Origin: a virus | IMG/VR virus record: IMGVR_UViG_3300011126_000140 | Location: 1 to 38,243 of that record | Length of the DNA: 38,243 nt | Strand: one strand, 5' to 3' | Part shown: piece by piece, positions 4,799-35,812 of the stretch | Numbering within the stretch: the first letter of the stretch is position 1 | How the letters are laid out: each line of letters opens with the position of its first letter | Notes under the pieces: model-generated | Seen by the model: the letters and a program-made list of their open reading frames with translations, nothing else | What the model was told of the DNA's origin: nothing | Databases searched by the model: none | Made by a program: the position numbers and the translations under genes

Positions 4799-5245
4799 CT
4801 ATTCAGGAAAAACAGCCTCTTCAGGCTTAGGAGGCGCACCAATATGTATATCACCAGTATGATTAATGTCGACCTTATCACTGTATCCAAACTGTTTCAA
4901 AAGGAAGATAGCAACGGCTTGGGGAATATTTTCATCCATAGAATTGGTTAATAATTCGCACTCTATCCACAACTTAGCACGGGCGATAATATATTCGAAC
5001 TCAGGCTTATCAGCATTATCATATATACTTTGTCTGGACTTGTATCCTAAGTGATACGCTAAACCGGCTATATGGGGTTTATTAGAGCTTAGAACAATAG
5101 GTTTACCACCCTTAACAACTATCTTATTATTTTCATCTTTAAGATATTCAGGCTTACACAGGTCAAAATATTCATTTATTTTTTCTTGCATTTCTTCAGC
5201 CGATTTAATTATAGGGGGTTTCCCTGGTCCTCTCTTGTATTCCAT
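4799..5245 (-). CDS. terS: Terminase small subunit (gp3-type DNA-packaging protein)
   Basis: The protein is 148 residues. It begins with RGPGKPPIIKSAEEMQEKI and continues with PHIAGLAYHLGYKSRQSIYD and PEFEYIIARAKLWIE. This series is typical of gp3-like small terminases: a target-recognition helix-turn-helix, then a helical oligomerisation core with LLKQFGYSDK. It recognises the packaging site and regulates the large subunit. The usual neighbour terL is about 3.1 kb away. The ATG at 5245 has AAAGGG 18 bases upstream and a TATACT box 6 bases upstream, so translation initiation is not standard. Confidence 0.85.
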   Translation of the reverse strand: MEYKRGPGKPPIIKSAEEMQEKINEYFDLCKPEYLKDENNKIVVKGGKPIVLSSNKPHIAGLAYHLGYKSRQSIYDNADKPEFEYIIARAKLWIECELLTNSMDENIPQAVAIFLLKQFGYSDKVDINHTGDIHIGAPPKPEEAVFPE

Positions 5246-7145: not shown

Positions 7146-7391
7146 TCACCCCTTACAACCACATTTAACCGGAATAAGGGATCCACTATGGTGGTCATAC
7201 TCTTCCTTAACTCCAGAATCTTTACACTTAGAACAAAAAGGGTTTTCTATCTTAGACTGAACAAAATTAGATTTTTTTACACAATCTAAACATTCACCCT
7301 TAACTTTTTTTACATCAAAATTAAATCTTTGATTTCTACTTTTACAATTTAAACATTCATGAGCTAATATTATTTTGTTTTCGATATGCAT
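7146..7391 (-). CDS. Double zinc-ribbon small protein, 81 aa
   Basis: Eight Cys form four close pairs: HECLNC (13/16), GECLDC (34/37), FCSKC (53/56) and CGC (77/79), enough for two zinc sites. The second half (FCSKCKDSG ... CGCKG) recalls half of a DnaJ-type zinc finger. It is the first gene downstream of the pseudoknot/terminator RNA and has GGAGG before its ATG. It probably binds nucleic acid or protein; the target is unknown. Confidence 0.65.
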   Translation of the reverse strand: MHIENKIILAHECLNCKSRNQRFNFDVKKVKGECLDCVKKSNFVQSKIENPFCSKCKDSGVKEEYDHHSGSLIPVKCGCKG

Positions 7392-7414
7392 TTATTGGCC
7401 TCCACTAACCAAAG

Positions 7415-7529
7415 TCCACATTAAAAAAAGAAACACGGGAAGAGAATGTGGATAAACTCTTTTCGGCTGCCGCCTATCCCGTGTCAAACAGATAAAAAAG
7501 TAACATTAAAAAACATTAATTTTTTGATA
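7415..7529 (-). ncRNA. Structured leader/small RNA with pseudoknot and terminator
   Basis: Read on the minus strand, the transcript from the promoter at 7564-7536 should start near 7529. The arms ACACGGGA (7484-7477) and TCCCGTGT (7440-7433) form an 8-bp helix. It encloses a short GGC...GCC hairpin and an AAGAG/CTCTT hairpin with a 12-base loop. A T-rich run (TTCTTTTTTT, 7432-7423) follows, as in an intrinsic terminator. Bases TCCACATT in the loop (7452-7445) are perfectly complementary to AATGTGGA just after the T-run (7422-7415), giving an 8-bp pseudoknot or an alternative fold. It is either a stand-alone RNA of about 107 bases or an attenuator for the operon starting at 7391. I recognise no known family. 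Confidence 0.6.
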
Positions 7530-7535
7530 AGTTGA

Positions 7536-7564
7536 ATTATAGTACTATTACTATTTATTGTCAA
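7536..7564 (-). promoter_or_regulatory. Consensus sigma70-type promoter for the structured RNA
   Basis: TTGACA (7564-7559), a 17-base spacer and TATAAT (7541-7536) on the minus strand form a perfect consensus. It lies just downstream of the methyltransferase stop. I see no other promoter between it and the gene at 7391, so that operon depends on read-through of the structured RNA or on transcription from farther upstream. Confidence 0.8.
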
Positions 7565-7586
7565 TTTTTTAAATAATTATTAAAAA

Positions 7587-8648
7587 TTAGAATAATAACG
7601 GCTGTTTTAATAACTCTCGTTCCCTATCGATTATAGTATTATAATGCTTATCATCTATCTCATAACAAACATACTGCAGCCCTAATTCAATACATGCTTC
7701 AACATCTGTACCAGAACCACCAAAAGGAATAACAACTATATCATTTTTACGTGTAGAGTTCTGCATTAACATTTTAATTAAGTTAACAGGTTTCTGAGTT
7801 TCGTGATTATAGGATCCCGATATATTTACTTGTTGACTATGATTTATTACATCAGTCATTTTTAAATCATTGATCCACGGCCGCCGAATCATTTCATTCT
7901 TATGCTTTAACTCTTCGTAATCTGATTTTAAATATCCATAAGGTTTACATAAATAATTTTTATCTTCTCCAGCATTTAACCAGGACCTTAATTTATTATA
8001 ATGACCCTCTGTTATCATTGCCGGTACAGACTTATCCAGGCTTAATACAGAACTAGCAACACCGCCGCCATTAGTAGCAGTACCCAAAACAGAGTTAACC
8101 TCTTTAAGAACTATCTTACCTTTACTTTTAATAATTTCTGACCTGATATAATCACGAACATTACCGACACATAGATCATTAGTATTTATCTCAGGATTAG
8201 AATAAAATAAGCATCTCTCTGTTACAGGTGCATAGCTTCGATAATTATCGGATCCCTTCCTCGTCTGGCAATCAGACTTTTCCCACACTAAAGAGTTTTG
8301 ATATGTAAAATATTTATCTAGTATTATTTGAGTATATGCGATATTACGAGCATGACCCCACCAATATAATGACCCGTTGTCTTTTAAGATCCGTTTACAC
8401 TCAATAACCCATTTTTCAACATCCTTCAGATAATCCTCGAAACTGGACCATATAAAATCAAAATCACCTTTAACCTGGTAGTATGGAGGATCAACCATTA
8501 AAAGACTGACAGACTTATCCGGAATATTATTACTCATCCAATCAGCATGTATAACCTTTCTAGTATAGCCTTTTGATAAATCCATAGGGTTTAATACTTT
8601 TTTACGGTTATCAACTATCTGTATATTATCTATCAATAAACTACTCAT
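7587..8648 (-). CDS. DNA N6-adenine/N4-cytosine methyltransferase (beta class)
   Basis: The protein is 353 residues. The catalytic motif IV DPPY (53-56) precedes the SAM-binding motif PFGGSGT (308-314), the order of beta-class amino-methyltransferases. ETQKP just before the SAM motif is also typical of the family. The central region (about 150-280) should be the target-recognition part. It would methylate adenine or N4 of cytosine in phage DNA and protect it from host restriction. No restriction enzyme lies nearby. It overlaps the upstream C5-methyltransferase gene by 8 bases, so the two are co-expressed. Confidence 0.9.
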   Translation of the reverse strand: MSSLLIDNIQIVDNRKKVLNPMDLSKGYTRKVIHADWMSNNIPDKSVSLLMVDPPYYQVKGDFDFIWSSFEDYLKDVEKWVIECKRILKDNGSLYWWGHARNIAYTQIILDKYFTYQNSLVWEKSDCQTRKGSDNYRSYAPVTERCLFYSNPEINTNDLCVGNVRDYIRSEIIKSKGKIVLKEVNSVLGTATNGGGVASSVLSLDKSVPAMITEGHYNKLRSWLNAGEDKNYLCKPYGYLKSDYEELKHKNEMIRRPWINDLKMTDVINHSQQVNISGSYNHETQKPVNLIKMLMQNSTRKNDIVVIPFGGSGTDVEACIELGLQYVCYEIDDKHYNTIIDRERELLKQPLLF

Positions 8649-12329: not shown

Positions 12330-13664
12330 CTAAAGCTTACCAGCCATTGCAGCAATATCATTTGCAGCCTGTAAAATAACACCTGTACCATGATTTTTTA
12401 TATCAATAGAATCCTGATTTTCAAGCTGAATAATATAAGAACTAATAAAGTCAGTTATGTCAGTTGAAAACTTAACCAGCTTATCTTTATCAGATGCAGC
12501 GGCTAACTTTTTAGCTGCTTCTTTTTTCCGTTGCTCGTCCTGGTCTTTTCTGGCTTTTTCTTCTCTGGATGCAATTAAATCATTATTATTTTTAATAAGA
12601 TCTTTGAATTGCTTTTTATTGTAACCTTTTAAAGAATCGATAGAAATTGATATATCTGACTTCACATAGTTTGACCTACGTTTTTCATATCCATCAGATA
12701 TTAATTTTTGTGCAAACTCCAGAGCTTTTTCACTATCTATAATTTGCCCCTTAAGAGTTTCGAGATAACCTTTAAAAGTTTCAAGAGTAAAACTATATAC
12801 CTGGTCCTTTGTTGTGGAAACATCGATATATAAAAACTCACCACTATTAGAGTTGTATTTAAACCCTAAATCAATAAGCATTGTTTTTTTAGTTTCAAAT
12901 AACTCAGCCTGTTTTTTCTGCTTCTCTTTTTCAGAGGCTTCAGAATCTTCCTTTTTAATCTTTGCTAGATCCGTAATAGCCTTATACTCAGAATCAGTAA
13001 TTAAACCAAAGTCAATATTTTTAACATCTTCGATAAAAGGAAGTAGCTCTACAGACTCTTTTAATCTAGAATCTCTTAATTCACCTTGTTTCTGAATCTT
13101 TTCCCTCTGCAGTCTCTCTTCCTCTTCCTGTTTAAGTCTTTTTTCTATAGTAGATCTTTGACCCTCTAGGTAAGAATTAAACTCATCATCTTCCATATCT
13201 AATAAAAATCCAGGTAGATTTATATTTTCATCTAACTCCAGAAGTTTAGCTTCCCTTTTTTTAAGCCTATCTTCCTTTGCTTTCTTTTCAAGGTTTTCAT
13301 AATATAATTCAACCTCTTTTAATGAGTTCTCACGCTCTACAACTGCAAACTTTAATATATTGTTCACACCGTCAATAGCTTTACCAGCAGCGACAAAATA
13401 AGCCTTTTCAGTTTTTCTTACTTTTTCGGCTTCAATTCTAACCTTACCGATATCTAACCTTAAACGCTTTGCAGCCTTACAGGTTTCCGGCGATATCTCC
13501 ATCGCCATTACTTCAGCATACTTTTTTTCAAACCCTTCCAACATATCTGTCATTGGTTGGAATACTTTTTTAATCTGTTGAGCTTTTGACTCTTCAACAC
13601 TTCCAAGTACTTCATTAAATGTATCAGCTGTTACAGCTTCAACTTTTACCATCTCACTACTCAT
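12330..13664 (-). CDS. Coiled-coil protein, possibly DUF1351-like
   Basis: The protein is 444 residues and dominated by long charged coiled coils (about 95-205, 225-260 and 360-400). The N-terminal part (KAAKRLRLDIGKVRIEAEKV) resembles DUF1351-type phage proteins, which usually lie beside recombination exonucleases and annealing proteins. Here it is followed by a PD-(D/E)XK nuclease, as that association predicts. Its role may be structural or regulatory in recombination. The start ATG at 13664 has AAAAGGTGGAAAA upstream and overlaps the XRE gene stop by 4 bases. Confidence 0.55.
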   Translation of the reverse strand: MSSEMVKVEAVTADTFNEVLGSVEESKAQQIKKVFQPMTDMLEGFEKKYAEVMAMEISPETCKAAKRLRLDIGKVRIEAEKVRKTEKAYFVAAGKAIDGVNNILKFAVVERENSLKEVELYYENLEKKAKEDRLKKREAKLLELDENINLPGFLLDMEDDEFNSYLEGQRSTIEKRLKQEEEERLQREKIQKQGELRDSRLKESVELLPFIEDVKNIDFGLITDSEYKAITDLAKIKKEDSEASEKEKQKKQAELFETKKTMLIDLGFKYNSNSGEFLYIDVSTTKDQVYSFTLETFKGYLETLKGQIIDSEKALEFAQKLISDGYEKRRSNYVKSDISISIDSLKGYNKKQFKDLIKNNNDLIASREEKARKDQDEQRKKEAAKKLAAASDKDKLVKFSTDITDFISSYIIQLENQDSIDIKNHGTGVILQAANDIAAMAGKL

Positions 13665-13903
13665 AATTTTCCACCTTTTTCATGAAATAATATTCTCATT
13701 ATCTCATCTTTAAATAATTCACTATCACCAGTCTTATGCTCATAGTGATCCTTAATTTGATGAATCCGCAAATCGTTAATATTATCACGGTCACTTTCCC
13801 ATCTACTAACTTGATTAGGCTTAACACCCAACATAGATGCAAACTCTGTTTGATTCATCCCAATTAAATGCCTCGCATTCTTAATCAATAACCAACGTTT
13901 CAT
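13661..13903 (-). CDS. XRE-family helix-turn-helix regulator (Cro/CI-like), 80 aa
   Basis: Residues 14-40 (GMNQTEFASMLGVKPNQVSR then WESDRDN) are a textbook XRE helix-turn-helix. The C-terminal half is a short helical tail without a protease or oligomerisation domain, so it is Cro-sized. Its promoter contains a perfect inverted repeat overlapping the -10 and spacer, which makes autorepression likely. It is the first gene of the operon that continues through the DUF1351-like and nuclease genes. AAGGCGG lies just before the ATG. Confidence 0.85.
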   Translation of the reverse strand: MKRWLLIKNARHLIGMNQTEFASMLGVKPNQVSRWESDRDNINDLRIHQIKDHYEHKTGDSELFKDEIMRILFHEKGGKL

Positions 13904-13925: not shown

Positions 13926-13954
13926 AATATATGGGATTACCCATAATATGTCAA
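13926..13954 (-). promoter_or_regulatory. Promoter with internal operator for the XRE gene
   Basis: On the minus strand, TTGACA (13954-13949), a 17-base spacer and TATATT (13931-13926) form a strong promoter. The perfect inverted repeat TATGGG-TAAT-CCCATA (13945-13930) fills most of the spacer and touches the -10. A repressor bound there would block RNA polymerase. The XRE protein encoded next is the obvious candidate to bind it. Confidence 0.75.
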
Positions 13955-35784: not shown

Positions 35785-35812
35785 ATTATACTCCTATTTT
35801 ATCGATTGTCAA
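35785..35812 (-). promoter_or_regulatory. Consensus promoter for the capsid block
   Basis: TTGACA (35812-35807), a 16-base spacer and TATAAT (35790-35785) on the minus strand are perfect boxes. The -35 overlaps the stop of the MuF gene, and the predicted start is at or next to the ATG at 35778. It could give a leaderless message for the scaffold, decoration and capsid genes. AGGAG in the spacer could serve read-through transcripts instead, 12 bases before the ATG. Confidence 0.65.

Follow-up and report, generated by a model that had tools for sequence, protein, structure and literature searches.

The RNA encoded on the minus strand at positions 7485-7432 of the phage DNA analyzed here (IMGVR_UViG_3300011126_000140, 38,243 nucleotides; this whole stretch is called the window) is a divergent member of int-alpA, a known orphan RNA family. 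Its fold is a three-way junction followed by a U-run, and across the family the loop of the third hairpin (P3) is complementary to two downstream sites, one of which lies at the Shine-Dalgarno (SD) position of the next gene. We consider it probable that the RNA is a cis-acting leader of the phage late operon, one that joins an intrinsic terminator to a pseudoknot formed with the SD or, alternatively, with a decoy.

An int-alpA RNA in front of the late genes

The features of the RNA and its surroundings are collected in Table 1. The segment 7424-7486 (−) folded with a minimum free energy of −19.4 kcal/mol (z = −2.9; 1 of 200 shuffles was as stable) and the stretch ahead of the T-run at −17.7 kcal/mol; the longer leader (7392-7530) folded no better than shuffles (z = −0.86). 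The outer helix P1, GACACGGGA/UCCCGUGUU, has 9 bp when its A-U and G-U ends are counted, and is followed by UCUUUUUUU. Within the P3 loop, TCCACATT (7452-7445) is exactly complementary to AATGTGGA (7422-7415) over 8 bp, and the window has no minus-strand copy of this full 8-mer partner outside the leader itself; complementarity between the loop and site 2 amounts to only 5 bp here. Taken alone, the loop pairing of the window gave p = 0.008 when the downstream DNA was shuffled and p = 0.005 when the loop was shuffled. Thus, three claims of the original prediction were borne out: a multibranched RNA with an outer helix and a T-run, eight loop bases complementary to the stretch past the T-run, and a perfect TTGACA-N17-TATAAT promoter, which matches the consensus at 12/12 positions (7564-7536, −). 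The P3 loop also holds TTATCCACA (7447-7455, −), which contains TTATNCACA, the sole DnaA-box-like word of the window. An RNA/DNA origin element was considered and rejected; the word is probably a chance occurrence, because about 0.5 such words are expected by our own estimate.

Table 1. Features of the leader RNA on the minus strand of the window, and genes that follow the RNA in other members

Feature	Position	Strand	Evidence or remark
-35 hexamer TTGACA	7559-7564	minus	sequence
-10 hexamer TATAAT, spacer 17	7536-7541	minus	sequence
int-alpA match (RF02996), 36.3 bits	7419-7484	minus	Rfam scan, gathering score 35.8
P1 5' arm GACACGGGA	7477-7485	minus	fold; same helix in Rfam alignment
Junction J1/2, UA	7475-7476	minus	fold, Rfam alignment, member comparison
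P2 hairpin GGC-GGCA-GCC	7465-7474	minus	fold, Rfam alignment
Junction J2/3, GAAA	7461-7464	minus	fold, Rfam alignment, member comparison
P3 hairpin AGAG / 12-nt loop UUUAUCCACAUU / CUCU	7441-7460	minus	fold, Rfam alignment
P3 loop 8-mer UCCACAUU	7445-7452	minus	complementary to site 1, or via UCCAC to site 2
P1 3' arm UCCCGUGUU	7432-7440	minus	fold, Rfam alignment
U-run UUUCUUUUUUU	7423-7433	minus	with P1 intrinsic-terminator-like; sequence
Site 1 (decoy) AAUGUGGA	7415-7422	minus	loop complement, begins 31 nt 5' of start codon
SD GUGGAGG	7399-7405	minus	sequence
Site 2, GUGGA in SD	7405-7401	minus	begins 14 nt 5' of start codon
81-aa protein gene, CxxC...CxxC motifs	7146-7391	minus	first gene past RNA
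Next gene in L144			NUMOD4-HNH endonuclease
Next gene in L189			HNH_repeat protein
Next gene in L160			GIY-YIG protein
Next gene in L164			AP2-domain protein (weak)
Next gene in L147			DUF1376
Next gene in L139			tail-chaperone-like protein (weak)

The original prediction had also held that the RNA matches no RNA family, and had suggested an Rfam search. The search overturned this claim, giving RF02996 (int-alpA) above the cut-off by a margin of 0.5 bit (E = 1.1e-7 for the whole record), though not with default filters: the match emerged with laxer ones, and a default-filter scan of the whole window missed it. The RF02996 alignment retains UAG, which consists of J1/2 and the first P2 base and recurs in other members, and CGAAAAG. 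The window RNA has the P1/P2/P3 junction of int-alpA with its UAG and GAAAAG letters, and a P3 loop that is complementary just past P1 (8 bp, UCCACAUU/AAUGUGGA). Two P3 pairs are non-standard in the alignment, but AGAG/CUCU does pair in the window fold. The motif, reportedly described by Weinberg in 2017, takes its name from its position between an integrase gene and alpA. This context is absent from the window, which has a DNA methylase before the RNA and the CxxC protein after it; RF02996 is defined by its covariance model rather than by gene context. A literature search of partial coverage turned up neither a functional study of int-alpA nor a published description of its two-site arrangement, and the accessible part of an E. 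coli survey mentions int-alpA by name only (PMC12370729).

The promoter and the RNA sit in a 195-bp gap between the methylase gene (7587-8648) and the CxxC protein gene. The transcript would start near 7529 (−), about 45 nt 5' of the folded RNA, and the compact fold begins about 50 nt 3' of the −10 box. Three perfect promoters of the TTGACA-17-TATAAT form occur in the window, against 0.08 expected from dinucleotide shuffles. The other two, at 35812 (−) and 15988 (+), contradict the earlier claim that there is no other promoter, and the former (35812-35785) lies within the late block, just ahead of a gene start. An 11/12 sigma-70 type promoter at 13954 (−) stands before an HTH repressor-like gene (13661-13903), and SD-like words were found ahead of 36 of the 55 ORFs of the window phage.

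Past 7391 come, among others, genes for an SprT-like protein (weak), a GP3-type packaging protein (4799-5245) and the large terminase (418-1656), and from 38240 towards lower coordinates the same strand carries the portal, protease, sheath and tape-measure genes. Terminase and portal adjoin in the relative G047 (described below), so the window record probably represents a phage genome that is circularly permuted. We infer that the RNA heads a late operon joined across the record ends, directly past the replication/methylase block. A terminase relative with 70% identity (L110, 10001-11224) occurs in a MAG labelled Bacteroidetes, which is possibly mis-binned given the SD-like words and sigma-70 type promoters of the window phage. 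The 81-aa protein itself had no Pfam or PHROGs match. Among viral contigs, a single-sequence search found no relative of it and a two-sequence profile found only that in G047, with 74% identity over residues 11-45; the two cysteine modules lie apart in G047 (520-416 and 34833-34735).

A strong promoter and a terminator (the latter by sequence only) right before the late genes would also be found in a lambda-type late leader, with a constitutive promoter, a short terminated RNA and a processive antitermination factor, to which the loop complementarity would be secondary. In lambda, the 6S RNA runs from pR' to tR', and the antitermination factor loads at the promoter. The perfect promoter of the window, the terminator-like end after about 105 nt and the position between the replication/methylase and terminase-portal-head-tail blocks all agree with such a leader. 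However, no Q-like protein was found in the 30 ORFs examined with Pfam or the 29 distinct ORFs examined with PHROGs (the two sets differ and are parts of the 55 ORFs in total, and a diverged Q could escape such scans). Moreover, the promoter at the orthologous place in G047 matches at only 9/12 positions, which 45% of shuffles of its own upstream sequence equal, and family members precede many kinds of genes, mostly without a strong promoter: a match of at least 11/12 precedes the RNA in just 3 of 22 members, among which an independent upstream promoter is not general. We regard a leader of the lambda type as unlikely.

Relatives with the same junction

G047 (IMGVR_UViG_3300024518_004253; 38,549 bases) is collinear with the window and was reached via the terminase; BLAST and exact-sequence searches for relatives found nothing, and an exact 20-mer search of viral contigs gave 0 hits. 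Between the C5-methylase gene of G047 and its counterpart of the CxxC gene, the orthologous gap holds the same junction with different helix letters: UCAAGGA / UA / GUUUUAAGC...GCUUGGAAU / GAAA / AAGUUGG-12-nt loop-CCAGCUU / UCCUUGG, then U5. The layout shared with the window is GGA-UA-P2-GAAA-P3-UCC-U-run. The P3 loop of this RNA complements the SD region of the CxxC gene in G047, and a long helix that would sequester the ribosome-binding site was set aside, being this loop-SD pairing in nested form. The RNA of G047 gave no Rfam hit, RF02996 included. A strict descriptor picked out the window and G047 sites alone in 1.33 Mb of fetched sequence, and with a relaxed descriptor 1.11 Mb yielded 4 sites and one shuffled copy of it 0; these counts are post hoc, because the descriptor was derived from the two sequences. 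In the methylase genes of G047 we also observed an in-frame TGA in the otherwise alignable frame of the N6/N4 DNA methylase (L087, 1768-1770), which may reflect a broken gene, a sequencing error or recoding, and an in-frame insertion of about 350 nt in the C5 methylase relative to the window protein (L093, 1109-1467, −).

From the window and G047 RNAs we derived a search pattern, which gave at least 121 instances in at least 119 stretches, and 11 distinct loci were retained by structure among the matches listed. Duplicates were set aside (L124 is identical to L136, and L173 nearly identical to L147); seven matches passed a filter, of which L176 (at a contig end) and L122 (no P2) were not used. 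Members were chosen by structure after some complementarity had already been seen, and the enterobacterial and Bacillota members are the only ones identified independently of the window-derived pattern. Enterobacterial members were fetched via the Rfam consensus; the E. coli loci have an integrase ahead of the RNA and, after it, an unannotated gene of about 300 aa followed by an HTH regulator. RF02996 was found above the cut-off in 2 of 398 genomes of one phylum and 0 of 395 of another. Among the matches listed, 5 of 12 scanned loci, all five viral, belonged to RF02996 (37.2-55.3 bits, above the cut-off). L189, L144, L136 and L164 were not recognized, nor was G047; therefore, the model covers part of what appears to be a single family. 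A model built from the window sequence alone (R1) matched the window itself, whereas 46 related records and 6 more gave no match. The phage record of L136 contains a second, weaker junction-like match (7753-7824, −; 14.5 bits with R1).

The genes that follow the RNA are diverse (Table 1), the remaining ones being unknowns, some of roughly 300 aa, and an integrase precedes the RNA in L136 and L189. The nuclease-type next genes of L144, L189, L160 and L164 suggest that the RNA and homing endonuclease genes may move together.

The junction letters UAG and GAAAA are near-invariant, while the helices and the loop vary freely. Such constancy would be expected if the junction were the pocket of a ligand riboswitch that chooses between pseudoknots, and translational riboswitches usually act through two exclusive pairings with an SD. 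However, AUAG and GAAAA were imposed on the viral set by the search pattern. In addition, the next genes (nuclease-type, DUF1376, tail-chaperone-like and the unknowns of about 300 aa) share no pathway. A ligand riboswitch of this kind thus seems decidedly unlikely to us.

Two sites complementary to the P3 loop

In four members outside the definition of the loop pairing, the pairing was significant (Fisher p = 5.8e-5). All 16 members with distinct loops, viral and enterobacterial, have two non-overlapping sites complementary to the P3 loop, one beginning at −46 to −21 and the other at −16 to −7 from the start codon; the next start codon lies 27-60 nt past P1 in 20 of 20 members. In these 16 members, complementarity scored 185 in the stretch after P1, against 126.3 (s.d. 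8.5) with swapped loops, and 237 in the stretch from −22 to +3, against 167.9 (s.d. 9.1), with 0 of 2000 swaps reaching the observed score in either case. The swapped-loop control removes the trivial effect of an anti-SD resemblance common to all loops. The score of the second site was 217 against 145.1 (s.d. 8.5; 0/2000; n = 16), and 188 against 127.0 (s.d. 8.9; 0/2000; n = 14) without the window and G047. A control stretch upstream of P3 gave no signal (169 against 164.8 with shuffled loops; s.d. 7.6). An immunity RNA of the P4/P1 type was also considered and rejected, as this upstream control stretch held no partner.

When the whole P3 hairpin was used without chosen loop borders, in 19 members including one Bacillota locus, the score was 262 against 207.5 (s.d. 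7.3; 0/1000). In this test 17 of the 19 members had a site that began no earlier than −16, the exceptions being L139 and L136, and in some enterobacterial members the pairing with the SD site partly uses the hairpin arm. Which site is stronger varies: it is the SD in G047 and L181, and the decoy in the window and L136. The two-site tests omitted three loci: L252, which is spurious; L253, which exceeds the RF02996 cut-off but has no clear second site; and L255, which scored below the cut-off and in which the core was not found. L246 and L251 entered the U-run and promoter tallies only, and L249 and L250 were absent from the whole-hairpin test. Kinship was handled only by taking distinct loops or one enterobacterial type. 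Statistically, predicted pairing of the loop with both sites holds across the family.

These statistics also bear on the possibility that the RNA is an ordinary intrinsic terminator with complementarity by chance. The pairing within the single sequence reaches p of only about 0.005-0.008, and the long leader is no more stable than its shuffles, as such a terminator would allow. However, the Rfam match, the junction in G047 and the family-wide pairing disfavour it, and we consider it highly improbable.

A U-run of at least 5 is present in 2 of 9 enterobacterial members and missing in 7, so that termination looks optional; its occurrence in every pattern-selected viral member follows from the pattern, which demanded it. 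Judging from the sequences, termination looks like an option and the loop/SD arrangement like the rule. The window has a strong promoter and U7, and an attenuator role is likely there.

The U-run is also relevant to a trans-acting function, in which the terminated RNA would pair with the SD of read-through or host mRNAs. The terminated RNA ends before site 1, and therefore its loop would be free; in the window and the pattern-selected viral members, the U-run would release a free anti-SD loop. Rfam types the family as 'Gene; sRNA', and in the window the full 8-mer partner occurs on the minus strand in the leader only. However, the enterobacterial members that lack the U-run keep the loop/SD complementarity where tested, and in every case the matching sites lie in cis, immediately downstream. 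We find a trans-acting RNA quite unlikely.

A proposed gate and its parallels

In the cis-acting gate that we favour, the strong sigma-70 type promoter would start the transcript of the late operon, and the RNA would fold as a three-way junction (P1, UA, P2, GAAA, P3) with the U-run behind P1. Many transcripts would probably stop at the U-run, giving a short RNA of about 105 nt. Upon read-through, the 12-nt P3 loop could form a pseudoknot with either the decoy AAUGUGGA or the late-gene SD GUGGAGG, the two pairings being mutually exclusive; loop-SD pairing would block translation, and loop-decoy pairing would leave the SD free. The next gene would thus be under a two-layer gate of termination and SD/decoy choice. 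The comparisons establish family membership, the junction and the two complementary sites across the family; termination, SD occlusion, the default state and the trigger of the switch are inferred. The original prediction of an RNA that folds as a terminator or a pseudoknot was right in outline, and the loop pairing recurs with other letters in relatives, but the second site at the SD had been missed, as had the identity of the operon as the late operon. Among the roles proposed there (riboswitch-like attenuator, ribozyme or independent sRNA), the attenuator fits better, and no evidence for a ribozyme was found: Rfam matches to E = 10 within 7300-7700 included no ribozyme family.

More broadly, int-alpA RNAs might be widespread switches of mobile elements that sense a ligand or a protein with the invariant core of their three-way junction and direct the loop to the SD or the decoy, with the window RNA as a terminator-coupled version gating a late operon; this generalization is tentative, and we hold it to be possible rather than probable. 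With paired loop-complementary sites, one at the SD position, an orphan family typed as sRNA becomes a concrete, testable gate. It also extends int-alpA from integrase-alpA cassettes to the leaders of nuclease-type genes and a phage late operon.

Compared with RF02996 as described in Rfam, the window RNA shares the P1/P2/P3 junction and a loop complementary to sequence behind the U-run (model loop CCuU, tail AgGG). Unlike int-alpA, it has no integrase or alpA neighbour, heads a late operon and has its own perfect promoter; its junction starts with AUAG rather than CUAG, and its loop is UCCACAUU rather than of the CCUUA type. The RF02996 structure line contains no pseudoknot, and the model stops short of the SD. 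The lambda pR'-tR' leader likewise combines a strong promoter with an early terminator ahead of late genes, but it is not known to include this structure or the SD pairing, and no Q-like gene was detected among the window ORFs scanned. Viral exonuclease-resistant RNAs (xrRNAs) are three-way junctions as well, in which the loop of the third hairpin pairs just past the closing helix. The window RNA resembles them by topology alone, with no sequence or family match, and an exonuclease-resistant RNA was kept as a topological resemblance only.

A functional parallel may be drawn with the T4 homing endonuclease genes (I-TevI, segB, mobE), which, according to the accessible part of one report, are held down by terminators and RNA structures that mask the ribosome-binding site (PMC2988022). 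As in the window, RNA structure before a phage gene can mask the SD there, and mobE and segF carry terminators; however, the T4 structures described in that part are mostly simple hairpins bypassed by a later promoter, whereas the window has a three-way-junction loop with two alternative partners (PMC2988022). In Clostridioides difficile, a leader RNA ending in a terminator limits abiF: as far as the accessible text describes it, RCd22-abiF consists of a promoter, a structured RNA of about 100 nt, an intrinsic terminator and a promoterless gene (PMC12373285). This order of promoter, RNA, terminator and gene is shared with the window, although RCd22 belongs to a different family, RF03085, and its RNA, in the same text, also binds the protein product (PMC12373285).
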